Below, one piece after another: positions 7,756 to 63,837 of a stretch of DNA of 64,000 nucleotides. The notes under the pieces were generated by a model. The model saw only the letters and a list, made by a program, of their open reading frames with translations. It ran no database searches and was not told the origin of the DNA. The stretch covers positions 1 to 64,000 of the forward strand of contig LVLI01000170.1 in assembly GCA_001687465.1 (NCBI GenBank), read 5' to 3'. The stretch comes from Halocafeteria seosinensis. Taxonomy: Eukaryota; Sar; Bigyra; Bicosoecida. The position numbers were made by a program, and so were the translations under genes. Numbering within the stretch: position 1 is the stretch's first letter; each line of letters begins with the position of its first letter.

Positions 7756-8343
7756 TTGTCACCGTGGAGGAAGGCCTTCGTCCGCGAAGATCTGGGAAAT
7801 GACGCTGCTCTGAATAGGCATCGAAACCGAGGCAGTGACGCCCGCGAAAGGAGACGCTGGATGAGTCAAGATGATGAATGGCCGGAAGAAAGAGACAGCG
7901 GAAGTTGCTGGGTTTGTCCGTACGACATGAAAACGTTCAGTTATTCAAGTAGGATACGCCCGTTCATTACCATTCCGGTAGTACTTTCAAGGATGGCGAA
8001 CCTGGAGAGGTTCCTGAACCTACACCTAATGAAACGGGCCAATATGAGCTTTCGACGCTCAGCAACCGTGCGGGCGTCTATTCAACTAGAGGCCGTAGCC
8101 AAAAGCATGAAGGAGGCAGCTACTCTCCATTTAAACGGTTTGGATTAAAACACTCGTGCTGTGGAAGCAGCCTTTGTACAAGAAAACCTGTGTGAGGGTC
8201 TCGTATATCTGCACACAATGTCCAAGTTTCTGGCCAAGGTTGAGAGGCCTCGTTTCGTTGTTTTGCCAAATGGCCTCATTAGCAAAATTGCGGGTCGTGT
8301 GCAGGAGTGGCAGCGCTCTGTTGGAAGTCGTACAAGTCAATAA
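7756..8343 (+). pseudogene. Open frame broken by a single in-frame TAA
   Basis: One reading frame runs from about 7756 to a TAA at 8341 and is interrupted only by TAA at 8146-8148, about 196 sense codons in total. The first usable ATG is at about 7861 (MSQDDEWPEERDS...). The text on both sides looks protein-like: an amphipathic RASIQLEAVAKSMKEAATL before the stop and AFVQENLCEGLVYLHTMSKF / LPNGLISKIAGRVQEW after it. No GT..AG intron of normal size removes the stop. It may be a decayed gene, a read-through gene, a sequencing error or chance. No family recognised. Confidence 0.25.
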
Positions 8344-32446: not shown

Positions 32447-35400
32447 TCAACCCTCCTGCTCTTTACCTTCCTCCTCCGGAAACTTTGAGTCCTCGTTCTC
32501 GAAGCTAGGCTCCTCTTGGGTTCGATATGTCTCGCCTTCTAAAGTAGCATCGTCTACCAGCACCTGGAAGCCCAGCGCTTCATCAAGTGCAAATGCTCGT
32601 TGGAATTCATCCTCATAGGACAATCGCTGATCTTCATCCTCCCATTTGCGTCTGTACACGAACTTACACTGACTGAGGAGATCACCAATAGGCCGCTTCA
32701 GCAAAATACCACTAGTCACTGTGCGAGGGGCACTACTAGATGCACTTTGAACCTCGAGCGACAGTATTCGCTGCTGCGGGGAAGTAACTGGAAGCATACC
32801 CTCGCGAAGCGTACCAGCTTGGCTGTTTGCCAAGCTATTTTTGAGCCACTGCTCTGGAGCGGTCGAGTCGCCAATGACCTTGGCCGCCACCTTGTAGGTG
32901 CTGGCATTCTCGGATCCAACATTTTCAGACCACTTTATGGTATCGCCAAGTACGATATCATTTGGACTATTGCACATTATATCAAAACTAGGGATCTCGG
33001 TTCTCCCAGATGAATCCTTAGAAATTACTATAGTTTCCTGACTAGGGGCAGACGCAACTCCCGCAACATTCAGAGCCCGTATTCGCATTCGATATACGGT
33101 TCTAGCTGACAACGATACAACGATGCATTGCTGAGATGTTGCTGTTTGCACGTGAGTCCAGTTTAGACTTTCCGACGGTACGTTGAAATTGTGAGACGCG
33201 TGCGTGTACCCTTCTCTCAAGCTCCGGAGATTCGTCTCATCATCATCTGCACCTCGAGGTGGAAGAGCCTGGAGAATGGCTGCCTCGACGACATACTTTG
33301 AAGCACCGCCTTCCCCCACATACCACCTCAGCCAAACCGATCGAGCCTTCGTCTCCAGCACACAAGGTGCTGATGGAGCCAACGGTGGAGTAAAAACGGG
33401 CAATGGTGGACACCACTTCGCGGATGGACCGTGTCCGATCGCTCGCAAACGATAAAAATATAGAGTGTTTGGGAGGAGAGAAGTCTCCTGCAACGTAGTC
33501 CCCTTCCCACGGTATACACAAGAATTCATCGCCAACGCTTCGTAGGCAGAGACAGTACCACCCACTCGTTCCATGGATTCACCAGGGTGGCGGCGATCGT
33601 GTTCTTTCTGGGTGTAGTTGAGGTGTTTCTTGACAGTGCTAGTGGTAAGTTGAGACGCGTTTGCATCCCTTTTACCAGCATCGGATCCTGATCCCACGTC
33701 AACATCGCTTGAAAGAATTCGGTTTAAGCGCATTACGGCCTCCGTTAGTGTAACGGCCCATCCGCGTATTCCCCTGCTACGCCGCACTTCGAACACAATG
33801 TCTGTGAAAGATCGCTCCCTCCACCATTCATAAAAGCTGTCAAAGTCTACCGTTCGATTTACTTCCAGTAAGGGACTAAGTTCCCAGGGACGGTCACTGT
33901 TTGACTGTCCCTTCCTAAGTTGCTTGATTGTGTCAACTAAGATATCTTCCGATTCAAGCAGATCCGTGCACCCAATATCTCTCAGTAAACAGCAAAAACT
34001 TGCTATACTCATCCTCCCTTCTTGCTGGTGATCGTAGCTATCCCAGAGACGACGCAAAGAGACACCTAAACCCCCGTCAGCTTTGGTGTTAGCAGTGGAG
34101 TTTCGCGTCGCCCCAATCGCTCCTGGAGGATCAGCAGACGCCCAAGCAGCAAGCAGCTTGCCTGTTTGCAACTTTCTTGCAGAACGGAAGTCTGTATCCA
34201 TCGCCATTTTCGAGCCAATAGAGTGTCTTCCCATCCTCTCGGCGGCATTTTTGCGCCGGGCTGTATCTTCGTTCTCCCCTTGTTCACCTCCCAAGGACAT
34301 ACCCATGCTCATACTCTCCTCAGACATTAAACTATCTTCCGTGTCAACTGCGGCATGAGACTTGCCCAACTGGGTGAGTTGAATCCTGTTCCATCTCAAA
34401 GTTACTGTACATGCTTGCATCAGAGTCAACATAACAACATCTCTAGTCGTTCCCAACGGACGTTGAGGTCCCGGTGACTGTAATGACAGCGTAGGTGGCG
34501 GGAGAGTTTTTATTGGGGTGGTAAAATACAGTGGCGGCGACAATTCCGACGCAATACCGTCTGCATTTACGGCCTGAACCCGAACCAGGTATGTCGTAGC
34601 ATGATCTAGCTGCTTGAGCTTCCTGGTAACAGACTTGCCGACAAATACCTCTTCGTATTCAGGGTAGTCCGAGTCATTAGACATCGAGTAGTTGTCTTTG
34701 ATAGCAAGCATTAAACTGTACTTGATGTCGACCCCGTCGATGATCCCACTTGAGTCCTCGCGATCTTTGATAGTCCGTATGCCTGATGACCGCTTATTGT
34801 GACTTGCTGTGGAACTGACACAGCCAACAGGATCTATGCGTTTGAGAGCATTGAGGGTGTTATCCGCTTGTTCAAAATATCGAAAGCTATTACTGTCATA
34901 CGCAAAATGTCGAACTTGGCGAGGAAGACAAAGTGCCAATAACTCGGAACTATCATCAGGCGCAGGTACTAAGCAATAGGTACAGCATGCTGATTCTAAC
35001 ACAGGACCAAGCTCCCTATCCGCCTGCTCTCCGTTGACAGTCACTGTTCCCTCCTTGTAAGCTAATTTGCTGGAGAACACCGGGGTCAAAGCATCCTCCG
35101 TAGAAGGCGAATTCTTGGTAGAGCTGCCGGGCCCACTCCTTAGGTCGATCTCAGTATCCATCAGGGAAGATGAAAAAGCATACTTTCCGAAAAGGAAACA
35201 AATTTCGCCCCAGGTCACCCATTCTGGAACATTCTCAGATGCAATGTTGGCTATCTTCACAGCAGCATCTTGCGAAGAAGCAGTGTCCACAGATCCAGTT
35301 GCTGTTTCTTTACCAGTACCACCGTGCTTATCCCCATGGTTTGAAAAAGCTCTTGCATACCGACGAAGGAAGGCATCTTCCTCTGCTGCCGTTGCCCATG

Positions 35401-38369
35401 CTGCGTCTTCCATAGCGGTGAAAATCGTTGATGGAAGATTCTGCAGGCCATTATCAAAGTCTGCCTTATCATGGGTAGGATTACATCCCTGGAGACTCAT
35501 TACTCGTCTTCTAAGTTCGTTTTGTAAGACACCCCAAGCAAAATAGCGGATCGCATTTGCCGATACGGGCCACTCCTGGAGCCAGCTTCTTAAAGCGTGG
35601 TCATGCTTTATTGCAGTCATGAGCTGCTTCCGTGGCACAGCCTCAAGGAAAGGGTTCCCGGAAATATACACTTGCTTACTATGCTGCTTCAATCCTTCGT
35701 ACACAATCTGGAATACTCTCCGTAGGTTTCTAAAATTACGTCGAAATTCCCCATACAATGTCCAGGTAAGCGAAACCAACTGCGGGCTAGCGCTTACTGT
35801 TACGGGAGTAGGAGGTGGCAACGGGGCCGTAGTAAAGGAGGCAAATGTATAACCGGATGCGCCGTACTCGTTAAATGCTCTGATCCGATAGTGGTAGGTA
35901 GTGTTGGGAAGTAACCCGCGGATACACTCACTGTAGTTGGCATCCAAAAGTTGTTCACTATCGGATTGTGTTTCGGGGGTTGGGGGATCGACAAGAAGTA
36001 CTCTCCAGTTACCAGATTTTTGGGACTCTGATCCCTCTGCACCGCATGTTTCGACGACGAAGAAAGACGCGGGATTACTTCTATCGGGACACTGCCACCG
36101 AAGCAATAACTCAGCAGGACCGTGCGTGCAGCTCACTTTCGGTAGATCCAATCGAGGAAATGGTATGTCCGGCGAATAGCTTGATTCACCAGAATCAGCT
36201 TCAAGGTTTTCTAAGTGAGAAAAATTCGGCAAAGAATCGAAATGGATTTTGATAAAGTTCCGAATGCTCCTTTCCCCATTTTTGACGCGACACCTGACCT
36301 TATGCCTTTTTGGCAAAGTTTCTCCTTCAAGGTCTCGAAATATAAGGGGGGCACTTGGTGGCTGTCCCATTGCCCGGCGCTTTTCTTCCCGGAAAGATTG
36401 CCTGTCCTTGGAGGATAGTGTCAGTAGTGCTCGCAAGCCTTCGTCCCGTTTTTCGTCCGGCCATGTTTTGGAAGCGTCGTTGATGTTGGTAGGAGGAAGA
36501 GATTTCCATTTGGAAACGCACCTCCCCGGGGGAAATAAAGGTTTAGACCACTCCAAGAAATCCGACAGAAGTGTGTGGTCGATGGTTTTCAATGACCTGG
36601 CGACATTCGACCAAAATATTACGTGTTCTTTAGTAGGATGCAACACCACCTGCTGTCGACGAGCAGCGGCAGCTTGCCTCCTGGCTCTGTCCATCATCTC
36701 ACGAAGTTGCCGCTGATCTTGGGTTCCAGAACTTCCTTTACCCCCGCTTTGCAACAGAGCCAAAGCATCTGCTTCAGTTTGGAGCCTCATTGCGTCGATC
36801 TCTTCCTGAGTAACAACTGGCATTGCACTTAGACACTGTCTAGCCACTTCATTACGCTTCTTTCGCGAGGCCCACTTTCTGCGGTAAACAATCCGGTTGC
36901 AAGCTGTTGTATCGGAAGATACTTTCGAACGAGACGTACCCAAACTTCTCTTCTGCTTCCTCTTGTTTCGTTGATTTCTCCTTTAGGCGCTCTTGACGCA
37001 CAGGGTTTTTCTCCAATTCTTGCTTGAATTCCGCCTCTTTATCCTCATCAAAGTCTCCATCCGTGTCCCGAAAATTATATTTATACACATATCCTTTTTC
37101 TAGCAACTTCTTTCTAACATCTTCCAGTTCCCTGGAGCTTTGGGCGTGAACAAACGCAGTGTGCTTTCCTGTGTGGAAGAGCAAGAGCGGGCAGCCTCAT
37201 AAGGTGAACGGATACTCGCAGGTAAAAAATACGGAAACCTAAGCTCACCTAGATCTGGAGCGACATTAAGGATAGCATATTGGTTCTCATCATCTTGAGC
37301 AACCTCTTTCAATTTTTCTGTCACGTGAAAGGCGACGGTGAGGTTGCATTAGGGACCAGCAAGGAATAGTTACTCTACTTACTTTCGCCACGAGGAAGTT
37401 TGATGCGAAATCGCTCTTTATTTTCTACCCAGGCTTTATGCGCGTGTTTGCTTTCTTGCACTTTATTCTTTTCCTCCTCTTGCTTCTTCTTAGCCGCGCT
37501 AGCCTCATCCTCCCTGATCCAATCCAACATTCGCTTCAACCCCATTTTCTTCAGCTTTTCACCTATTTGTTCGTCCGACTTATCGCCAGTATCACCGAGG
37601 CGAGATGTCACTGTCTCGTGTGCTTTATTCCACGAAGCACTCAATTTTTTCATAAATAGTGCATTCTTTAGCTTCGAATCATTGTCTAGGGGAGGTGGCA
37701 GTTTGCCCGATTCATCCGCTTCTGGCGGAAAAACATAACCCAGTACAGGAATGTTGTACACTTTTTTCCCGTCTTCGGTGTGCTCAAACTCTTTTTCATC
37801 TTCCAGTGTTTCCAGAAATTCGGTAGAGAATTTAGACGAAGTGTTTTCGTCGATTTTGACATCCTGGAACGTCTTGTTATGTCTGCTCCAATTATAAAAG
37901 GTCTTCCTTAAAGAAGCCGCACGAACGGCACCCACTCTTTGTCGCAATTGATCAATTGCAGCAATGCTCACAGCCACTTCGAACCAAGCGTCATCATCTT
38001 GTGAACGATGTTTGGCCAGTTGAGGCAATGTCTGCAAATCCACGTATCAGACGACGTATGTACACGATACCAACCATGACAGCCGGGAGAAGAACTTACC
38101 TTCTGCGCTTTCTCTATTAAGTTCTTGGTAAACAACCATGTATGATAGGCGTGACTTCTGGATTCATCCCGTTCCTTTCGACTATCTTGCTCTGCCTGTT
38201 TCTTTTCCCAATATTGCCGTCTGCACCAAAAGTCGACAGCAAAAATGCTGGTTTGAACACAACACAAATAACCCGATGCATTTACTGTTTCCTTTGCTTA
38301 CCTCTGTCTATCCTCTTCAGCTTCTTTCTCCTCCAGCCACTCCTCGAACCCTTTACGATTGGCGTTCAT
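32447..38369 (-). CDS. Giant fibronectin-III repeat protein with N-terminal charged coiled coil
   Basis: Six exons: 38302-38369, 38100-38220, 37383-38031, 37249-37317, 36940-37168 and 32447-36878, 1855 aa. The N-terminus repeats Trp-containing charged helices (EEWLEEKEAEEDRQRRQYWE, AYHTWLFTKNLIEKAQK, HKAWVENKERFR), as in several ciliary/centrosomal coiled-coil proteins. Several FN3 domains follow: one near 620-740 (LLPNTTYHYRIRAFNEYGAS), one around the middle (LDHATTYLVRVQAVNADGIA) and two or three near the C-terminus (LLPNTLYFYRLRAIGHGPSA, ARTVYRMRIRALNVAGVASA). Between them lies a degenerate EF-hand-like pair (WDSYDHQQEGRMSIASF, NRTVDFDSFYEWW). There is no signal peptide or membrane span, so it is intracellular. 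An axonemal or cytoskeletal scaffold is plausible but unproven. No named family recognised. Confidence 0.8.
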
Positions 38370-40391: not shown

Positions 40392-43300
40392 TCAAATGTC
40401 TTTGGCAAAATCCTGAAAATCTTGAAGCGAATTCTGTATAGATTCAAATGTTCGTACCAACTCCTTCACATCGGGATCCTCCGGTCGCCATTCACCACTC
40501 TGAAGGAACGACCGCAGGGTCGATTTGTATCGGCTTTTGATATCGTCAATCAACTTGTTGCAATGGGAGTAGAGCTGTTCGATTTCTTCGCGATCCGTCG
40601 TAGCTCCATGACACGTCTGAATCCACGCGTCCAGCAGACTCGCCATGGACTCAAGATAGTGAAGAGTTTGAGTGCCACTGCTACTCTTGATACACTCATC
40701 ATAGACTTCGTATCGCAACAGCCATGAGACACCTACGGTATCCAATGTGTCAACACACAACCAACCAGCATGGTAGTCTTTTCTCCCTGTTGCAGGTAAC
40801 ACAACTTTATACGCGAAGCTCTCCAGCTCTTCAATCAGGTAATTTAGTGGAACAACAGCGAGCGGTCGTGAGTCGGGGCTATGTTGAAGACTGCTGGCGG
40901 CCTGAGATGTATTTCGAAATCGGCTCTTAACTGCACGTGCGTTTGCATCGTTCCAAAATCGATGCCCAATCTCACCAACTTTCTTTTGCAGCTCTGCGAT
41001 TGTATCATCCTTCTTGTCTACAATCGTCTCCTGTGGACGAACACCAGCAGTATCTTCAATTGCCGTGTTGATAACACGTTTCCAAACATTGACGACCGCG
41101 TCTTGATTCAGAGGTCGGTTATCAAACTCGAGAATAGCCAGGCAGGGGACAAAAAATCCAAACTTATCGGCGTAATCGTAATATAGTTCCGTAATACTCA
41201 GCAAGCGCCGTTCTAGCTCCGTTTCCGCTCTATTGAGTTCGTTGTAATTATCGGTGTTTCTCTCTTCCGAAGCCATCAAGTATCGCACTGCCCTCAAGAG
41301 TTCATGCTGTATCCGCGCAACCGTCCGTCTGCGCTCCCATGTGTCCAAAGTATTCTTGCCTATTCTCTCTGACACTAGTTCGCTCTTCTTTGATGCCGCT
41401 GATATAGCGCTATCATACCTGCTCAAGCGGACCTCTAGAGAGGGATTAGCTCCCTCCGAAAAGTATTCTTCAGCCCTCCCTATTTGCAGACACGCGGCAT
41501 CTACATATCTGCTATGAGCCTTGTAGTACTCGAAAAGCAAATCTCCGTACTCCCTCTTCCGCTTCAAAAACTCTTCCAAGTATCTTCCATCGCATCTGAC
41601 GAGTATGTCACTGAGACCCAATTCAATCAACTTCTTGTAGAGCTGTTCGTGCAGTAAACGATCTTTAGACTCTAAGAGTCTTTTCAGGAGGAACCGAAAA
41701 GAAAGTAGATTGTCACTGTCCTGGCTGTGGCCGGAGAACTGAAAACTGTCCTTTTCCCAATGACCCTGCTCAATTTGTCTATCCACCTTGGCTTGTTCCA
41801 CCAGATCTTCATGCGGTTCATGCAGAGTAGACTCTAGCATCTCGAGCAATATAGCGTAGCACTGAATCCGTACAAACAACCGGACTTCCGAAGGGTTCAT
41901 ACCTTCTTTAGGCGTATTGTTGGAGTTATAATATATACCTGCATTTCCCAAAGAAATAGTTCCTTCAGCCGCTGCTGCAGGAGACCGTTTGTGTCCATAA
42001 TTTTGCATCTGCTGGACTTTCCCAAGACCTTTGCTTTCCAAAACATCCACAGCGACCAAGTCATCGTACGAGTAAGCTTCTACATTTCCCTCTGCGGCAT
42101 GTGTTGCTGCCGTACAGCAAAGTGATATCACACCTTCGTGAAACCCTAAATCAACGAAACCAAGACAAAGTTCATGCAACTGAGGGAGAAATCGCTGCAA
42201 AGACCATTGTTGGCATGCGTTAATTGCGTGTTGTAGACTATCATTCAACCGAGATCGACGATCAGATGCTGTCGTAGTCAAAGTTGAGCGTCTTGCCAGA
42301 TCAAAGGAGATGAATGCTTGCCACATTTCAAAATCTTCCAAACTGAAGTAGTCCGGCGCTTCTGTCCGTAGAGTCGATTGCAAATCACGGAAAAAAGATG
42401 ACTTGGAATCTTCTCCATCGCCATCATCCATGTCTTCTGTGTCAATATTGTCATCATTCTCTGAAACCCGTAGGGTTTCGGTGAGCTTGTCCAACAAAAA
42501 TCTAGCTAATGTAAAGCCTCTATCATCGCAGATTAGTGTTTCATATGTCATTTCAAGCGCAACATCACGACCTTTGAGATCAAGCAGGGAAAGGTACTTC
42601 ATCAACCTCTTCGAGTTCTGCACGAGCACCTTCATGACGGAAACAGCTTGTGCTGAGCGGTTAAGTAGAGTAAACAGGGCTACGATGAACTTCCGTTCGA
42701 CATCCATAGGACTTTCATTCGGTAGCAGCGTGAGAATATCGCTACTTTGTGGGGTTTCATTGTACAGATGAGAAATAGATCGCCGCCCAACAAGATTTAT
42801 TTCGCCATAGAAAGATTTCAAAAACCCTTCTAAACCCTTCAATCTCTTTCGGACGTCTTTCAATTCGTCTGCTGTGAAGCGGCACTCAATGGATCCCCAA
42901 GAGGACTGGTTACCTCGGCTTTCACTCCTATGTATAAAGAGTGAACACTTCCAAAAAGAACGCAACAGACGAGACAAATATAAAGAAATACCCTCTGCTC
43001 GACTCGACTTTTGAATGTAACCACCGTGTTGTTCTGGGTCACCACCAAATTGTAGAAGCGCTTCTATAGCTGCTTTCTTCACATTGTGGTCCGGTGATCG
43101 TTCTTTCGAAGGACTAGTTATTGCAGACCTTACGAGATCCTCTTCATTTGCCGATGCGCCGATCGCAACCAACATCGCCGATGATTCTACAGGACCAAAC
43201 AAGCGGAAGAACTGTTTCAGATTGTTGAGATGGATCGGTCCTAGAATGTTTCCATCCTCGGAATTTTCTCTGCGATTAGGTAAGTAGTTCAGTTCGTGCA

Positions 43301-45661
43301 CTCTGTTCCGACGGTGAGTGCTCGCATAAGAGATGTGCCCTTGGTTATAATTCAGGATCTGTTTCAGTTGGTTCAGCGGTTTGTTTAAAGTAACGTAGTG
43401 GAGGCCTACATGCGTTAAGCACACAAACGAATGTTCAGATTCACTTTCGTGCTGCCTGTCTAAAGCGCTTAGTAGAACGGGAGAGCCGCCACCACCATAG
43501 CTGCCACTAAGAGTATCTCCGACTTGGTCATTGCCCGCTACTCCCATCCCTTTTCTCCTGTCTCTGTTGTTTTCACAAGATGAGACCGGCGCGCGTCCTG
43601 CCCACGCACGCCGTTTCATCACGTGCTCAAAATAAGAACGGAGATTTTTGGGAAGTCCTTCCAAAGGCGAGTCGTACTCATGCCCTAAACGAGGACCCGA
43701 AACATCTGCCGGCTGGCCGTGTCCGTCATCTCGGCGCCTCTTCTCCCCCACACTTGGAGCGGTAACAAAAAACCGGGCAAAATTGCTGAGCAATCCACGT
43801 GATGCCTCTTTGGGGGAATCCGACTGAACACTCGCCATATACAGCGCCTCAGGTGCTGTTTCTCCATAGGGAAGGGCTACAGCCCCAGAGGGAAGGTAAA
43901 CAACATCTTTCAATAGTGAAGGTGCAGGCGCAATTGATTCGATCGAATAGACTTTTCCTTCAATGTAGGCCTCATTAACAGACTCATCAAACCCCTTTGG
44001 CAGAGCGGCTCCCACATTTTCATGCCGGGCAAAGTCGAAGGCAGATGCCGCAACATGGTCTACCCCACCTTCACTCGTTGCGGCATACGCGGTAAGCGCA
44101 ACCGAGCCTGTTACCGCCGATACATGGTGTACTTTATCTGGAGAAACCTTGCCGGGATCGGTGCTCTCTTCGTTGTGCCTTGAAGGCTCGTAAGTTGGAG
44201 GCGGAAGTCGAATATACGCCAATGAGAGACTGGTCCCGAAGTTACACTTAGAGCTTGCAAGACTCATTGAGGGAGGCTGAAAATCAAGGTTGCCTTTACC
44301 AGTGGTAAAATAGAAGCGCGTACCACTCTCAGACACGGCCACAACATGTATGCGACGAGATTCATATGGCGGCAAAACATGCAATCCAACTAGGGGCCAA
44401 ACAGCACTCATCCTGTCCTTGTGTCTCTCAAAGAGTCCATACATTCTGTTCAATTCTCTTACTTGCTGCCATCTGTTGCGTTTTAAGAAGGCGTCGCTTT
44501 CTTCTGCCAAGTTCTTCACTTCCGCAAACCGCTGAAACTCGTTCCCGTTAGTGCCCAACGTGTAACCTGATATCTTCCCGTCAACTGACAACGTATATAA
44601 GAGACACCGATGATGATCAACGACAACGTCAATCAGTTCACTGTGAGTCGGTGTCACTAGGGAACCAACCACAGAGCTGAAGAATGCCGACGGAGAAGAC
44701 GCGTGATGTGTGACCATGGAACAACGTGAGGAGAACCCCAACAACCCCGTCCAAGAGATTTCATAATCCCTCTGGGAAGTATACACAAGCTCATGGACCA
44801 ACCCGGAATCACCAACCAAGAATATTCTACCCGTTGCAGTACCCGCAATCTTAGTGATTCCGATTCCATCGGTTTGGCAGACCAACCCAGTATCATAATA
44901 ATGCAGCTGGTTATGTATAGAGTTGCTATCGAAAGTGAGGGCCAGTAGCCTTATTTCGACAGGAGTAGCTACAACAAGTAAATACTGCGTGTTCATCAGA
45001 GATTGGTAGACACAGATCTGCTAGGTGCCAGGATCAGAGCAATACGTACTTTGACACTCCTCGGGAAGACGTGAGGTTTCGGGACCACTAATCCTACCGT
45101 GCGTATTGCTTGGCCTTCTTCTTTGTGAAGAACGTGGTTTTCATGTGCCTTCTCATAATTCCATATGTACAATACATTGTCGGCGACCACATATGCCCGG
45201 TTAATTTCGCCCAACAATCCTAGTCTGAAATCTACCTCACAATTCTGGCATAACTCCAATGCTTCGTTGGGTAACGGCAACTTTTCTGAGGAGACAACCT
45301 GCGATCATAGTACACATTGCAATACCATGCGTATGTATAGAGTGATGCACCCATTTTTGTCATTCCTCTAGAGGGGTGCCACAAGAGGATGTCACACACC
45401 CCTTACCTGTGGTGTCCAAGGCTTGCCGCGTGCATACGGCTCAAAGTAGTACTTGTGTCCACTTGAGCCTCCCTCCATTCCGGTTGCCTGGTAGGAATGG
45501 GCTCCAAACCTGGCAGCTAGATCATTGTCTTCTTGGTTAGAGAATTTGCCATTGACGTAATGGGCAGCATGTTTGCAAAGAGCATTCAGATACTCGTTTT
45601 GTCCTCTCTGGTCCCCATTCGATTGGGATCCTTCCCCGGGGCGCGCGAGAGAGTTAAGCAT
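40392..45661 (-). CDS. NUP155: Nucleoporin NUP155/Nup170
   Basis: Exons 45407-45661, 45050-45298 and 40392-44984 give 1698 aa, longer than the human 1391. The N-terminal beta-propeller has RAYVVADNVLYIWNYEKAHE, IRTVGLVVPKPHVF, and YLLVVATPVEIRLLAL, which matches LLVLATPVDIVILGLS of human NUP155. ATGRIFLVGDSGLVHELVY follows. The C-terminal alpha-solenoid is long and helical and ends in QNSLQDFQDFAKDI. It is an inner-ring nuclear-pore protein that ties the scaffold to the membrane. The extra length lies in a Ser/Gly-rich loop around the middle. The first ATG (45661) is used; a TTG-initiated extension has no support. Confidence 0.92.
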
Positions 45662-46926: not shown

Positions 46927-49821
46927 TTAGTTCCTGCCTTTCGCCTTACCACCTCTATTGACAGTGCTGTTACTAACCTCAACATACTTCTTAGGAATCT
47001 CCAACGTCTTGATGATGTACTCATTCACTTCCTTCAAGAAATCCCCTTGCAGCATTACTTCCTGTTTACCACTGGAGCCAGGGATGTCCTCTACTGTAGC
47101 CCGCGCAGCGAATTCCCGTTGAACGTTGCGCGAAAGTAAGTTGGGATTAACTCCCCAATCTTCCACATTCTTAATGAGAGTACTTTTCTTATTCTGGCGG
47201 TTAGGTACCTTTCCGGAATACAACTCAATCTTGGGTGGCTTCCCACGTTGAACTACTATATCTCTGTTCTCGAAGACTCGGATGTGAAAAGGGGAGCATT
47301 TTGAAGTTACTGCGTGCACGAGCTTAGATTTCTCTATCTGCTTGTTTAGAGTGGCCGCTCTCGTAGTCGTTGTAGGCGCAGCCTGAGGCTGAGCTCTGAT
47401 AGACAAAGATGGGAAGTTGTTCTCAGTCATTTCAGGAGCGCTTTCCCGTTCCTGGGAACCAGATGTTCGCTCTTGCGCATCCTTTCCTGCCAGTCCCATC
47501 AAGGTTTCATCCAAATAAACTTTGCTTTTCTCTGATTTATGCTGTAGATCATTATGCTTAATGTAATGGGAGAGGATAAACGTGATATCTTGGTTGCGCA
47601 ATAGGATACCTTGAACTGCTTCTGAGACAGTGCGCAAGTCAACATCTCTCCGGATTCGGCACCGGACAAGCCCATCCTTGATATGACCTCCTCTTTTCCA
47701 GATCTCGTCCGCAATGACAGAAAGATCCGCACCTTCCCTCACTGACTTCTCCATGTCCCGACGATTTCCGGCTAACCCGTTGACATAAATGCCAAAGGGC
47801 ATGGGTACCGTATTCCTCCAAATGGCGTCTTCGTTGTCTTCTTCCTCATCCGTGATACCGCCAATAATATGGCAGTCATCCAAAGTTATGTCGGAGGGTA
47901 GAGAGTTCCCCGATTCATCAGCTGTTCTAATCTCGTGAAGCAATGTTTCTTTCATTGGCTCTACAAGCTCTTTTGGAGGTCGTGATACCTCCATTACAAC
48001 TGGAATTTTTGAGGAAGACAACAATGCACCCTTTGGTGACTGTGTGTCTTCCGGTTGTTGCGCATCTTCCTCGCGAGCAACATCTCCCGCGGTTTTCTGC
48101 CATTTACGATGTGTGCGCACCTGTGGATGCTTTTTATCAACACCAACAATCCATAGCACACCACTGTCGCTGAGCGACTCCACATCACCCTTAGATGGGT
48201 TCCGTTCCATCACCGCTTGTACCTCTTCAGAGGAGACATCACCTTCGAATTCTGCTAATTTTACAATCCTCTCGCGGGCAGCTTCACGCAATAGGTTGGA
48301 TACCTTCTTAAACGAGCTCTTTTTGATCTCTATAGTGGTTCCCACGGGACGAGAAGGGAGAATATGTTGTGCCCAGACTTCAGACGCACGCATGGGAAGT
48401 GAAGACTCTTTGATTGACAAGCGTACAGCTTGTAGCAACGTGCGCCAAACCAAGTCTGTCGGATCCATATCAACACTGGCTTCAGAACGTTGATCCATTG
48501 CCTTTCTCTCAACAGGGTTAGAGCTATCTTCTGCTGCAGTTGAGCCACCGGCGGTACCGTCAGCGACGTTATTATCTACTACCTCAGCATCTTCTCTTAA
48601 GAGAACTTGGTACAACCACTTCGGGTTCACTCCTGCTTCAATACAAAGTTCCCATAGTGCGATTTTGCACCTTCGTGCCTCCTTCAAAACAAAATCGATT
48701 TCTTCCTCTAACGTAGCGTGTCTACCCTCGTTAGACTGTGTCTCTTCCTCTTCCTCATCCATACCGCTCATGGCGAGAGAAGCAACCCTTTCGATGCTCG
48801 CGACGATTTCCTTCGCTTCAGTGCTGGGACTGACTTCATGCTGGCGAAACCCGTCGTTCGGGATACCTGCAGTTTCGCCTTTCGATTCGTTCACTCCCCA
48901 TTCCCACAGTTGGTCTCTGTAGCACTGAGTAATCTTAGCAAAACGTCCCTTCTTTCCCGAGTCCCTCAGTTCTTCACTGTTCATTAACGTGTAGCCGACG
49001 GCAAATGGAATTGAATTTCCCATGGAACGAATCGCAATTTTCTCACCCCTCATGAAGTCCGCCTTATCATGAATCGTATAACAGGGACCTGCAAAGACGT
49101 TCTTCAGACCCCACTTCCTGCTACTGTCTCCGGATTCCGAACGCTCTTCAGAGGAAAAAAATTCAGAGGGTGCCACAGTTATCCCAGGTGCCATGAGGTC
49201 AGCCCCCTCGATGATGTACCTGGAAGCTGCCGGTACTACTACTACATGGGGCAATGTATCCGGGAGCGTCCACAGAGTGAACGCGGTTGGGTATAGGCTA
49301 CCTCCCTTTTTCGACTTCGCATCTGTATCTATGAGAAGAGGCACACCAGAAGGAACTCCTTCCGGTGATTTCTTTGCCGGCTTGAATGCATACAGTAAAA
49401 CATTGCTTTGCATCTTGATGCATTCCAAACCACCACCCTGCACATACATACTCATTGCATGGTAAGTCGCTGACCGTACACCACACGCAACCAGAGTATA
49501 GATAGGTAAGAAGACCATCTTGCCGCCCTCCTCCATGTATACGACACCCACACGTACCTTGCCAGCCAAAAGTTGTGAGACATCCGAAACAACTTGTTCA
49601 GAACTTGCTGAGCCCATCGCCGCTGCCGCTGCTGCTTCTCCTCCACCTCCAGTCTCAGCTACAGCTCCTGTGTTCTCTTCGTCTCCAGTGTCTGCCTTCC
49701 GCTGTCCATCCGCGCGAACACCAGGGAGCTGAAGGGAGACATTCTGCCGAAGCTGTCGTATGTCCTTATTCTTTAAAAGAGACCGTGATCTCACGTTGAC
49801 ATCGTGAGGTTTGGTGAACAT
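46927..49821 (-). CDS. EIF2D: Translation factor eIF2D (ligatin/Tma64)
   Basis: Single exon, 964 aa, against 584 in human. N-terminus MFTKPHDVNVRSRSLLKNKD...LR matches MFAKAFRVKSNTAIKGSDRRKLR. The PUA-like part shows LYPTAFTLWTLPDTLPHVVV and IIEGADLMAPGI (human GGADLMLPGL). Then comes the winged-helix/SWIB-like domain with TDLVWRTLLQAVRLSIKESS, EIKKSSFKKVSNLL and IVGVDKKHPQV. The C-terminal SUI1 domain has RGKPPKIELYSGKVPNRQNK and TLIKNVEDWGVNPNLLSRNV. It delivers initiator tRNA or recycles post-termination 40S subunits. The extra length is acidic/Ser-rich linkers. Shares a divergent promoter with RBM34. Confidence 0.95.
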   Translation of the reverse strand: MFTKPHDVNVRSRSLLKNKDIRQLRQNVSLQLPGVRADGQRKADTGDEENTGAVAETGGGGEAAAAAAMGSASSEQVVSDVSQLLAGKVRVGVVYMEEGGKMVFLPIYTLVACGVRSATYHAMSMYVQGGGLECIKMQSNVLLYAFKPAKKSPEGVPSGVPLLIDTDAKSKKGGSLYPTAFTLWTLPDTLPHVVVVPAASRYIIEGADLMAPGITVAPSEFFSSEERSESGDSSRKWGLKNVFAGPCYTIHDKADFMRGEKIAIRSMGNSIPFAVGYTLMNSEELRDSGKKGRFAKITQCYRDQLWEWGVNESKGETAGIPNDGFRQHEVSPSTEAKEIVASIERVASLAMSGMDEEEEETQSNEGRHATLEEEIDFVLKEARRCKIALWELCIEAGVNPKWLYQVLLREDAEVVDNNVADGTAGGSTAAEDSSNPVERKAMDQRSEASVDMDPTDLVWRTLLQAVRLSIKESSLPMRASEVWAQHILPSRPVGTTIEIKKSSFKKVSNLLREAARERIVKLAEFEGDVSSEEVQAVMERNPSKGDVESLSDSGVLWIVGVDKKHPQVRTHRKWQKTAGDVAREEDAQQPEDTQSPKGALLSSSKIPVVMEVSRPPKELVEPMKETLLHEIRTADESGNSLPSDITLDDCHIIGGITDEEEDNEDAIWRNTVPMPFGIYVNGLAGNRRDMEKSVREGADLSVIADEIWKRGGHIKDGLVRCRIRRDVDLRTVSEAVQGILLRNQDITFILSHYIKHNDLQHKSEKSKVYLDETLMGLAGKDAQERTSGSQERESAPEMTENNFPSLSIRAQPQAAPTTTTRAATLNKQIEKSKLVHAVTSKCSPFHIRVFENRDIVVQRGKPPKIELYSGKVPNRQNKKSTLIKNVEDWGVNPNLLSRNVQREFAARATVEDIPGSSGKQEVMLQGDFLKEVNEYIIKTLEIPKKYVEVSNSTVNRGGKAKGRN

Positions 49822-49955
49822 CTCCTACGTCTCTTCAAGCCAACACCCAAATCCATTCGTTACTGCTACTATACACCCCAATATACAAGCATTTGTGTTT
49901 TACACAGGCTCTAGAGAGCACTATACATGAATTCATTTCACCAAGTGCTGTGAAA

Positions 49956-52355: not shown

Positions 52356-57452
<5,097 letters not shown>

Positions 57453-58035: not shown

Positions 58036-61000
58036 CTAACTGGAATCTTCCCATCCAAATGCTGGATTTTTAGCAGATGATCTCTTGTCTTTACGAAGCA
58101 CGACTGGAAGTTCTTGTGCAGTATCATCCACATTTCCACCAGACTTGCGTCTTCTCAGCACAACCACCACTGCAACAAGTATTCCAACAAACGCTAGTGC
58201 TCCAATTGTCGCACCTGCTATCACGGCCGCAGACGAACCGCTTCCGCTCCCAGCCGCTGCAGAGCGTGGAGAAGCAGAGGGCATGGCAGTTGGCGTAGGG
58301 CCCGTTTGTAAATGAACAAAATGCTCAAAGGTACCTGCGTCATCGGAATCCTCTCCATTTATAAGCATTTCGAATGTGTGACTCTCTCGCGGCTCTTCCT
58401 GCAACTCTAGACTTGTCTTTCCGGTAGCTCCCCGTACATGGATGATTGGATCGGTTGATGCTGCTGCGTTGACCCATTCACTGGTAATCAGAGCATCCAC
58501 CAGGCTGCTGGAGTTATTGGGTATACCAAACAATTGAGTGAAAACGGCAACCTCTTTGCCTGCTGGAGATACGCCATAGAGGACAATAAAATCCCCCTCC
58601 TGTTTTACCCAAGTAGCGGCACTAACGCTAAGTAGTCGGTTGGTTGAAAAATCAAACCCTCCAGAACACTTAACTTCCCCACCGGTGCTCCCACAAACAA
58701 CCGACTGCCTAGATACTCCTTGCGTAGCTAAATTACTTGTGTCGAAAACTAGCACAAATTCACGGTCAATGGATACAGCGAACTCAGGGTTTTCAAAGGA
58801 AAACGTTTTCTCCTTTATCGCAGGTCCAGTACCAACGGTTCCCTCCCAAGCATTTTTCAAAAGAGAAACCACAGTTGCTTCTACACCACTGTCGGAGCAG
58901 TTCCACGACATGACAATGAAAGGTTTGCCATTTTTGTCCTTGCCAAATACTTTGACTCCCTCATGTAAGAGGCAACCACTGGAATCTTGCTGCACGTTTA
59001 TGGGAGAAACATTGACTGTATCGCTATCGGTGTTTTGCGTTGCAAGAATTTTTCCCTCTTCTCCAGAGGCAAGGCCGACAACGTAGGTAGTTAAGTCCCA
59101 CGTAAGTGCATCCACACTCCTTCCTACTGTTTGGTCTTGTCTGCAACTATTGCAACCAATGATCACTTGTTTTGATTGGCAGTCACTAGAAGCGTCAACA
59201 GGGGTCAATAACATCTCTCTCGATGCAGGAACTCCGGTGAGCAAGAATGGCTCATTGTTGAGCTCTGTTCCCCGAGGAAGATAGCTTAACGACCCGACAG
59301 ACGTTGGACGAGTACATGCACTGAACTGCTTAACCGTGTTGTTTGTCACTACGCCACCTTCACCTTGTCGTCCAGGAACTCTAGTTGCGGAAGCACTGTG
59401 GGTAGAAGTCGGCGACGGAGCGCGAGGTGAACTCGTTGGCACAAACGTTGGAGTACCACTAGGAGTAACTCTTGGGGTAGGGGTTGGCGGTGATAGGTCT
59501 GCATGGTCCGAATACAAATGAGACATATGGATACCTGCCCATTGTTAAAACCCAGTACACACCTCGAATGACAGCATCTCCTTGAGCTAAAGAGGGGGGC
59601 ATTGGGGGAGCAATGCAGTCGACATCTATCACTCCTACCCCTTCGTTCCAACCAAAGTAATGTGGATTCAACCACACAAAGCGCTCCTGTCGATTCTCGT
59701 ACGCGGTTTCGTACGTAAAACTAAGGCAGTACCAGTTCTGTGTCCCGTTCCCGCCAGGGAGCTTATCAGGATTAACGACAAAGCTGAACATGACAAAAAG
59801 ATCCCGGTTAAGCGTAAACAGGGCGTGAGCTAAGAAAGAATAAAAACGAACTTACTTCAGAACAGCTGCGTCGTCGCAAACCACGTTGTGTTCAACTCCT
59901 TTACAGAACTGGAAGTTTGGTTTTTTCTCTGTTGGGTTCCAGAAGAAATTGAAAGAAGCACGGGTACCGTCTTGCAAAAAGAAAAACCTTCGTCTGCATG
60001 TATCATAAAGGAAACTCTTACGCCTACCAATAATTCTACAATAAAAACCGGACTACATACTGCAGTTCGCCAGGAAGTCGCTGGCACATCCCTTCATGAA
60101 TGTCGGTCATCGAAGGAGGAGTACTACATGCGGAACTCAGCACCCCGGAGGTTCCATCGAAAGAAATCACGAGAGACCTGTTTTTCTCCGTTAAACCGTA
60201 AGAGGTAGTATATTCGAAATCCAAGCAGTAACCAATTGACGGGAGATCGGAAATGTTTCTGCATGAGAACGACCAGAGTCAACTTAACGTTCGCCTCTCC
60301 GGCGTTCCAAAACATACTTAAGCATAGCATTGTTACAATGCCCGTTTCCAGTGCAGAATTGAAAGGTGTCTGTTCCGACGTCGTTTCTGCCTGGATGCTC
60401 AGTAAGATTCAGAGAGCCACACGCTCCGCCATCAACTGGACCCTGGTAAAAGACGTTTGCTTTCCTGTGAAAATAAATTATATATCACATGCTTGCGTCG
60501 TTGTCTATAGCACCATGAACTGTCGTGCAACATACCTCGAAGATCTCGGGAGAATTGGACATATTCCCGCTGTGAGAAAACGACGATGCAACCTTCGCTA
60601 CAGTGGCTAGTAACAACCGTCGAGCAGTTCATCCGCCAACTTACGTGTTAGGACATTACTATATGCACGGAGATTCTTTTCCCCAGGCAAACCACTTCTA
60701 CATACGGTCTCAGAAAAGAAGGCGGATGATTCACTAGTTGTCTGATTCACCGTCATCCATAGCACTCGTCGCTCTGGTTCACCCTCAATGATGTCCGGCA
60801 CGGAGAATTCAATACAAAACCAAGTCGCACCACTCTGATCTTTAGACTTGTAGAATAATCTGCAACCGGGACATAAGACCAAACCTCATCTGTGAGATGC
60901 CGCCCCAACTGACACACATACTCTAAAACTGAGAAATGAGAATCGGACGCGCTGGCAGGCTCTGTGCATTGTCGACGACCGCCGACGCCTCTACAGTACT

Positions 61001-63837
61001 CAAATACGTCGAAATCGTCATAGCCGCGAATAGCCGCATTCTCTTCAAATAATGGTCCCGACAAATTGAACGAACCACATGTTCCGTTTCGATCCCAGAA
61101 TCTTAGCTGTTGTCTGCATGTCTCTCAATAGTTGATACGAGCTACCTCAACATGAACGTGTTACAGTACGTACCGCAAACTTGTGGGTAGTGCTTGACAC
61201 ATTTGTCCTGCGTAAATCCATTGTTAGCATGAAAGCATTCATACACGGACATTTTGGTAGGAGAGTAAACACACCATCTGAGGAAATTCGACTGGGACGA
61301 AAATCTAGTAAGGGATCACCATTACAGTCTGAGGATATCGCCGCCTCGCTACCATTCTCTTTCAACCATAGGAAAGAAGCACCGTCTGTAGTGATGGCGC
61401 TCGAGAACTCAATACAATACCATCCATTTGTCGTGTTTCTGATACATGAAAAATAGGAGAGAAGAGTGCTACAGTATAAATTTTCGCAAGATCAGGTTCG
61501 GCGTCACTTACGATATAGTTTTCAATCTGGCATCCGCATCACAGGCACGCTCCGTCTGTCCGAGGAAATCACTTTCGCCGTTCTGACAATAGCGAAACTG
61601 ACTATATAATCTTGGACCGTGCGATCCGCCTGCTGGAGGATTGCCCGAGAAATTAAACGATCGACAAGTACCTTCAAAGTCGTTAAACTTGATGAATTTT
61701 CTGCAAATACCATATCAAAGTTAATAGTCTTATGTATACCTCCCAACTGTGTGAAACACATACTGAGTTTCACTTGTCAACCCTTTGCATCGTCCGGCTG
61801 TTACAAATACCAATAGGAGTCATCATGCGCTATAGTCATTGGTACCATTCAAAAATATAATCACGGGTATGTACCTTGAAGGCTATAGAAATTGGGAGGC
61901 TCTTCGTCGCATCCGACGCTCATCGCTGCACGTGTCGTTCCTTGACCATCGGTTTCTAGCCATAGAAACGTGGCAGTGCCGTTCCAAAGAAATTCTACAC
62001 AGAAACTGGTAGATTCCCCATTCCCTCTCATCTTGTGTATGTCTCTGTGAGGTAAGAAACATTTGCGCCTCTAAACCGGCAACGAAGACGGACAAAACGT
62101 ACACCGTACGTACTGTGTGGAAGCAGGTAGACAACTTGCCAGGGAAGCGTTAGTGTCCTGGCAGAAACGAAAGTTCGAAACTGGTCCATTAAGCCCAGGC
62201 ATTGTTGAAAAATCAAATGAGCGACAACTTCCATCTTGTTTAAATTGGTGTTCCCCTCTGTATAAAAAATCCACAGCCTACTTGTAAATTGGGGAAATGC
62301 TCAAGGTGCTTGGCTTACGTCACTGGCAGTATTGGACAGTCGGAATCAACTGCGAGGCATAAAAGCAACAGGAAAAAAGTGCTCCATAAAAAGCAAGGGG
62401 GAAATTTGTATACAACTGTACCCAATACGTCTTCGCTTGCTTCAGGAGCGTCATTTTCCTGACAAGGGATTCCTGAAGGCTCCACTGCCAGGAACACTGA
62501 TTGGTTCACTGCTGTCTTGCTCATCCAGAGTGAAAAGTGTTTCGTTTCAAACGGCCCGAAGAATATGCAGGTCCAGTCTCGGGTGTTCCCTAGCATTGAG
62601 TTTACGGTGCTGAAATGACCACAAAATTAAAGCACAATTCCAATTTCCATGCATCTGTGGTAGTGCATGAATGTCCTCACCTAATTACCAAATCTTCGCC
62701 ACAAACACGGTCTCCAAAAGACCCTCGACAAAATTTATGCAACGTGTCACCTTCGTTTGGGTTGCTACCATCGAAGTCTACCGATACGCATTGTTCTCCT
62801 TTAATAGAGTCAGGGTCGGAAAATCGAAAAGGGTTACTACTGCAAATACGAGTTGAGCATAGAACCTAGTGGGTCACAGAGTAAGGAACGATTCCAGCTT
62901 ACCGGAAAAAAATAGGAACCTCGCCACACATCGCATCTGTTAAGGTACGCCAGGCCTCTATATATTAACAGAGAAAACTACTTAATCCAATACAAAAACT
63001 TACTCTCAGTTTTTGATTGGTACATAAGAAGTGGTTCTTCTCCAGCACAATCCGAGGAGAGAACCGCATGACTAGCGTCGTTTGACATCCAAACATAATT
63101 TGACACTTGCAAAGTTGTTGAGAACTCCACACAGAACCAGTTTTCTACATTCTCGTGGAACACGACGGAGCTGCAGCTAAAAGGTACAGGGTCAAGAATT
63201 GGAGGCCCCGACCAAACAGCGAACATACCTTATTTGTGCATTTGGATCAACATCGATGTCACTCCGTTTTGATCTCAAAGCTAGAGTAAATTCGTCAGTA
63301 GCGTTATTAATGTTGGAAAAATCGAAGGATACACATTCTCCATGTCGGCTCTTAGCAGTATATATCAGCCTATTGTCAAACTTGACTTTACGTTGCGCGC
63401 TGCAAAGGACATAACTCATGAGTACGAAGTTTGCAAGAGTCAACATTTAGGAAACGCATGGCAAAGTTTCGTTACATGACTCTGAGACAATTTGCACAGT
63501 GCCACCGACTCCAGAAACAAGCAAAGAAGGCTCCTACAAGCTTTCAGTCCCGGTTTAGACTAATTCTTGTAATCTAATCGCTCTGATATGTGCTAAGAGA
63601 TCGAATAGTGAAACCTGACCGAGTTGTGTGGTTAAGAAACACCACCCAAAAACAACCTCAGGCTATACTGGGGCATGCAGAGTGCTCTCCTTACCTTTCA
63701 GGAATACCCCCGCTAGTAACTTGTTCGATCGCTTCAGCTGGAGCTCCCGTGGCAGCTACTAATGATAGCAGAACAAATCCGAAGATAGATGTTAGCCCTG
63801 GCAGGGCTGGCTTCAGAATCAACTGAATCATTTTCAT
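58036..63837 (-). CDS. Type I membrane protein with seven tandem cysteine-rich A-B-C units (unrecognised repeat)
   Basis: Twenty-one exons, all in phase, 1443 aa: 63695-63837, 63229-63399, 63004-63176, 62903-62957, 62681-62839, 62422-62609, 62319-62349, 62105-62257, 61875-62044, 61740-61797, 61512-61700, 61275-61438, 61174-61207, 60922-61113, 60645-60859, 60536-60569, 60318-60464, 60061-60258, 59856-59993, 59563-59783 and 58036-59534. Exon 1 is a signal peptide (ltsifGFVLLSLVAATGAPA). Then come repeats: A exons with motif C-x-S-F-[DN]-[FL] (ECVSFDFS, SCRSFDFS, TCGSFNLS), B exons with W-[FY]-C-[IV]-E-F (WFCVEFS, WYCIEFS) and FLWL, and short C exons (GQMCQALPTSLR, GICPILPRSSR). The last exon has a Pro/Thr stalk, a 370-residue ectodomain, a membrane helix (near 1381-1404) and a basic tail. 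Probably a cell-surface adhesin or receptor; function unknown. Confidence 0.85.

Follow-up and report, generated by a model that had tools for sequence, protein, structure and literature searches.

A seven-unit exon array predating its gene family as a putative extracellular head of surface proteins in Halocafeteria seosinensis

The 64,000 nucleotides analyzed here (the window; positions 1 to 64,000 of contig LVLI01000170.1, here C115, in the 30.6-Mb, 605-contig assembly of the protist H. seosinensis) contain on the minus strand, from 63837 to 58036, a gene in which exons of three kinds, A, B, and C, recur in fixed order to form an array of seven units. It is one of at least seven copies, a family that an earlier note made from the letters of the window had not seen. 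In all six copies seen in full (the window gene, L023, L038, L039, L027, and L022a) the array has seven units, and units from different genes cluster according to their position. At least one copy appears to have received a different C-terminal part at the intron behind the array. With a probability of about two in three, the genes encode a family of surface or secreted proteins in which an ancestral seven-unit array serves as a portable head for binding or adhesion, carried by several receptor frames.

Results and Discussion

Structure of the window gene

The gene was rebuilt from explicit donor and acceptor sites, which yielded 21 exons, 20 GT-AG introns (46 to 90 nt, with the exception of intron 1, 295 nt), and a protein of 1,415 amino acids. 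After exon 1, the order A-B-C is repeated five times and followed by A6, a fused B6-C6 exon (phase 2 to 2), A7, B7, and the last exon. The seven A exons all start and end in phase 2, the six separate B exons run from phase 2 to 1, and the five separate C exons from phase 1 to 2, at sizes between 31 and 221 nt. The exon number, order, and phases proposed in the earlier note from hand splicing were thus borne out, as was its notion of a three-exon cassette that can be copied without breaking the frame, the phases being compatible on re-splicing. It had also recognized the B6-C6 fusion but considered the C of unit 7 not separable; no C7 was seen in the window gene. The features are as follows (all on the minus strand; exons 2 to 20 from re-splicing).

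63695..63837: exon 1; signal peptide (hydrophobic window), tail SGGIPES, which may be a Cys-less C0
63229..63399: exon 2, A1 (phase 2-2)
63004..63176: exon 3, B1 (2-1); one chain search preferred a later acceptor
62903..62957: exon 4, C1 (1-2)
62681..62839: exon 5, A2 (2-2)
62422..62609: exon 6, B2 (2-1)
62319..62349: exon 7, C2 (1-2)
62114..62257: exon 8, A3 (2-2)
61875..62044: exon 9, B3 (2-1)
61764..61797: exon 10, C3 (1-2)
61512..61700: exon 11, A4 (2-2)
61275..61438: exon 12, B4 (2-1)
61174..61207: exon 13, C4 (1-2)
60922..61113: exon 14, A5 (2-2)
60660..60859: exon 15, B5 (2-1); chain search preferred a donor 15 nt further on
60536..60569: exon 16, C5 (1-2)
60318..60464: exon 17, A6 (2-2)
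60061..60258: exon 18, B6 and C6 fused (2-2); fused also in paralogue models
59856..59993: exon 19, A7 (2-2)
59563..59783: exon 20, B7 (2-1)
58036..59498: exon 21; Thr/Pro-rich linker, predicted beta-propeller, transmembrane helix, short basic tail, stop
58312..59364: predicted beta-propeller domain, probably six-bladed, 351 amino acids modeled
58156..58233: single transmembrane helix, then RRRK (hydrophobicity)

Run blind to phases, a chain search found exons A1 to B7 once more, except for the shifted B5 donor (in both runs) and B1 acceptor (in one); it missed exon 1, and its last piece was a short, spurious part of exon 21. Because its splice matrices and hidden Markov models were trained on the window gene, it serves as a consistency check only. 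A gene finder based on hexamers was abandoned, as it cut the gene into too many pieces. Introns and genes of the assembly are of eukaryotic type, and its 30.6 Mb yielded no chlorophyll-binding protein.

A paralogue transcript joins the same kinds of exons

The spliced arrays of the window gene, L023, L039, and L027 were combined into one alignment, which was run against 5.8 billion proteins, with candidates restricted to 0.55 to 1.75 times the query length (shorter fragments fall outside this scope). The sole match at E ≤ 0.1 was a EukProt protein of 598 amino acids (P0001; E 1.9e-168) from transcript GECG01001852.1. Its first six exons (30, 55, 57, 10, 48, and 65 residues) are 100% identical to the paralogue L040 of the same genome, and the transcript apparently stems from the same species as the window DNA. 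The joins are in phases 2 (signal peptide to A), 2 (A to B), 1 (B to C), 2 (C to A), and 2 (A to B), that is, the same kinds of exons are joined in the same phases as in the splicing pattern of the earlier note, which provides a check from outside the window. For the later exons of P0001 the automatic alignment is imperfect (C2-A3 and A4-B4 were merged through stops, A3-B3 was misplaced). The last 64 residues correspond to the A5 exon of a further copy, L022b (64/64), and not to L040, whose contig ends; the end directly after A5 is probably due to retention of the intron between A5 and B5. The family is, therefore, transcribed in at least one gene, the RNA support being a transcript of a paralogue, not of the window copy.

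In automatic models of five paralogues, 89 of 91 junctions were found, 80 of the 91 with the phase of the window gene; this count left out the junction between signal peptide and A1 and the partial genes L022b and L040. The phase mismatches include the C2-A3 models of L023 and L038, which read across a stop codon and are known errors. Stricter counting in these five models lowered the number of matches, largely because of alignment offsets. Between L023 and L038 (without L023 4690-5520 and 6699-6800), exon sites differ at 10.9% and introns at 18.6%; codon positions 1, 2, and 3 differ at 9.9, 7.1, and 15.7%, respectively. The lower divergence of exons than of introns, together with the maximum at third codon positions, shows the protein to be under constraint. 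The pattern had been spliced by hand by a single reader on unannotated DNA and might, in principle, be an artefact in a non-coding or decayed stretch; given the identity to a paralogue transcript, the conserved junctions, and the codon-position bias between two paralogues, this is hardly conceivable for the family.

A seven-unit array that predates the gene family

A search of the genome contigs located array genes on five of them: C115 (the window gene and another from 65006 onward), C140, C389 (two or three genes), C506, and C170. The B6-C6 pair was modeled as a single exon also in L023, L038, L039, L027, L022a, and L022b. A tree was built from 40 A+B units: seven from the window gene, six each from L023, L039, L027, and L022a, five from L038, and four from P0001. 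Left out because of poor models or overlap were unit 2 of L023, units 3 and 5 of L038, unit 3 of L039, unit 6 of L027, and unit 2 of L022a; the tree likewise contains nothing from L022b or L040 and does without the fifth unit of P0001, which is incomplete. Each of the positions 1 to 7 occupied one side of a branch, with six label changes, which is the minimum (mean of 27.6 after shuffling). Support was strong for positions 2, 3, 4, 6, and 7, and weaker for positions 1 (79/85) and 5 (79/82); unit 2 of L039 formed a long branch. Because units of different genes group according to their position, the seven-unit array is older than the family.

Tandem copying, as proposed in the earlier note, is thus the likely origin of the array, but as an old and not a recent event. 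A cassette with compatible phases would be easy to copy, and units might be gained and lost between genes to this day; this is, however, very improbable in view of the grouping with the least possible number of changes and of the seven units in all six fully seen genes. Units 2 and 5 (81/76) and units 3 and 6 (84/67) paired in the tree without strong support, which would fit a duplication of the array in blocks; the groupings of unit 1 with 4 and of unit 4 with 7 were not rejected either (approximately unbiased test, p 0.18 and 0.13).

One array, several C-terminal parts

Over 4.3 kb, L023 and L038 share 85.6% identity. Their similarity breaks off at L023 8082 and L038 4799, inside the phase-1 intron after B7 (the B7 exons end at 8050 and 4767, respectively); no further match was found past this breakpoint, and the C-terminal parts differ. 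Judged from the two sequences, this is exon shuffling, by which the array of at least one gene received a different C-terminal part, although the junction in L038 may also be an assembly join.

The propeller exon forms the C-terminal end of the window gene, L023, and L022b. L039 ends with a short linker and a hydrophobic helix, whereas in L027 and L022a a C-like peptide after B7 is soon followed by a stop, and both products are probably secreted. In L038 the array continues into a frame of 1,467 amino acids, whose nine-cysteine match is weak and falls short of the Pfam cut-off (E 8.5e-4). The list of matches to this frame has 32 entries, namely the frame itself and 31 others on contigs for which the array search lists nothing. 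These relatives make up an extensive family whose open frames are very long (1,049 to 5,735 amino acids among those listed), and they look like multipass receptors; one of them, L043, has Thr/Ser/Pro-rich stalks, a Cys-rich region, several hydrophobic stretches by eye, and weak Pfam matches only. Exon 21, in turn, matches propeller exons on C389, C140, C364 (two), C194, and at C115:75978. No array match was found near those on C364, C194, and at C115:75978, and three of these four are preceded by long Ser/Pro-rich stretches. The array family has so far been seen in one species only.

The repeat unit

The module is Cys-rich, about 115 to 140 residues long, and present in seven copies, each composed of a C, an A, and a B exon; with moderate confidence, the folding unit is better read as C-A-B than as A-B-C. 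The predicted model of a unit is a single eight-stranded, barrel-like domain with the junction of A and B inside strand 5. The suggestion that A and B might be half-repeats of an older duplication did not hold: apart from the position of this junction within one domain, comparison of 33 A with 30 B exons by hhalign gave a probability of 0.3% (E 0.2). Both Cys of B are present in all 40 units; the second and third Cys of A are both present in 34 units, both absent in six, and never found singly, as for a disulfide.

Pfam assigned no family to the window protein at E ≤ 1, and its sole match among four array members was DUF3383 (E 0.069, in one of the four). The best match of the array profile to PDB sequences had an E of 0.3, and none of 7,991 candidates scored against the window protein alone reached E ≤ 1; P0001 could not be seen in this length-limited search because, with 598 amino acids, it is below the limit. 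Two peptide patterns each were present in 98 stretches of viral contigs and in 109 of prokaryote genomes; tblastn confirmed none of them, and a viral fold library gave no match at E ≤ 0.001. Pherophorin was considered and set aside, the Pfam scan being without any match. The literature records listed showed no account of the domain. In agreement with the earlier note, which knew no named domain with this pattern, no relative beyond P0001 emerged from Pfam, PDB sequences, or the protein searches, and in the libraries covered here the domain appears to be without a description.

Many of the matches listed for the predicted unit are small barrels, among them phenolic acid decarboxylases, lipocalin-like lipoproteins, avidin, nitrophorin, and fatty-acid binding proteins, which share an eight-stranded barrel shape. 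The module could, therefore, be a very divergent lipocalin/calycin, or belong to another known superfamily of eight-stranded barrels, and bind small hydrophobic molecules. The likeness is one of general shape: the array unit has no significant match, is Cys-rich, and occurs in a tandem array of seven, and the G-x-W motif that lipocalins carry at the first strand was not seen when the aligned array units were read. Such an affiliation is considered rather unlikely.

Exon 21 and membrane topology

Apart from the signal peptide and the transmembrane helix, the window protein has no hydrophobic stretch; together with the short basic tail, these two are elements the earlier note had named, and they predict a type I membrane protein. 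The array carries 14 N-glycosylation sequons. The stalk, the remaining element, was correct as to the Thr/Pro-rich linker, but exon 21 is not a stalk alone: the fold test returned a confidently predicted beta-propeller. It is probably six-bladed, the blade number being only probable because the top Foldseek matches are other propellers (Ski8, integrin alpha). Identity to the six-bladed NHL domains and the designed Pizza6 is 9% and 8%, respectively. No NHL profile was matched in a Pfam scan of seven exon 21 members, which had nothing under E 0.2 and gave only TseB (E 0.26, in one of the seven); none of 7,996 candidates scored in the protein database, under the length limit given above, reached E ≤ 0.1, and no PDB sequence matched the propeller profile at E ≤ 10.

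Proposed function

The signal peptide, transmembrane helix, basic tail, sequons, and the existence of apparently secreted as well as anchored forms point to a role in surface recognition or adhesion. The array would be the extracellular binding or adhesion head, with another cell, prey, a surface, or a glycan as the ligand. Propeller and linker could keep it away from the membrane or supply a second binding site, and with so short a tail the protein may act as an adhesin or signal via a partner, while the secreted paralogues could be soluble versions or decoys. The seven-unit array predates the divergence of the family's genes and has later, in at least one of them, been combined with another C-terminal part. 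We put at even odds the more specific proposal in which the C-A-B unit would be an extracellular domain not yet described, and the array a portable head, placed by intron recombination on secreted, short single-pass, propeller-bearing single-pass, and large multipass-type frames, as in an animal-style modular system of independent origin.

Alternatively, the array might be structural, in an adhesin of the cell coat, the extracellular matrix, or mating that self-associates multivalently and has no specific ligand. Seven similar modules with their sequons, Thr/Pro-rich linkers, probably secreted paralogues, and the lack of a Pfam signaling domain would all suit such a protein. However, each position has its own sequence conserved across genes, which is beyond the need of a simple spacer, and the partner of the array in L038 has relatives resembling multipass receptors. 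A purely structural role thus appears possible but doubtful.

Neighboring genes

Just beyond the window, the plus-strand paralogue L027 probably starts at C115:64234 (L027:1235; by eye from the open frame), ∼397 bp from the ATG of the window gene (63837), which makes a head-to-head pair. L022a (minus) and L040 (plus) form a similar divergent pair on C389. L022b is near-identical to L040 from C2 onward, and L040 runs off the contig end; this repetition may be a duplicate or an assembly artefact. Within the window, the 21-exon gene stands beside long single frames on the minus strand, with matches to nucleoporin families (40392-45020; Nup133-like N and nucleoporin C), the eIF2D family (46927-49824), and the tubulin cofactor D family (53386-55515); an uninterrupted minus-strand frame of 1,511 amino acids at 32447-36982 has fibronectin type III matches.

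Comparison with known systems

Modular receptors of animals were built by exon shuffling from phase-compatible modules, at introns beside domains. The array resembles them in both respects; it differs in that its unit comprises three exons with mixed phases (2-2-1) inside, and Pfam finds no animal domain in it. Among protists, leucine-rich repeat (LRR) genes of Tetrahymena contain arrays of 90-bp exons with constant intron phase, explained by exon shuffling and exon duplication, and T. thermophila genes contain 1 to 51 such exons (PMC6564038). Both are protist genes with tandem exons and regular intron phase; the array differs in its three-exon unit, its unnamed domain, its seven units in each of six genes seen in full, and its long divergence. 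Its phases also run in a fixed order (2, 1, 2) in place of one constant phase. No Pfam LRR match was found in the window protein or the four array members, whose exons, at 31 to 221 nt in the window gene, are not of the 90-bp kind.

The family adds a domain outside the curated library searched and provides a clean non-animal case of multi-exon modules kept in phase through deep divergence. The pair L023/L038, a seemingly fairly recent instance of exon shuffling with its breakpoint in an intron, makes recombination of receptors via phase-matched introns directly testable. One match to four arrays among 5.8 billion proteins, within the length limit, suggests that exon-rich genes of protists easily escape searches of protein databases. 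The mode of building, phase-compatible modules combined with shuffling, is of an already known kind, whereas the domain built upon appears new to the libraries searched.

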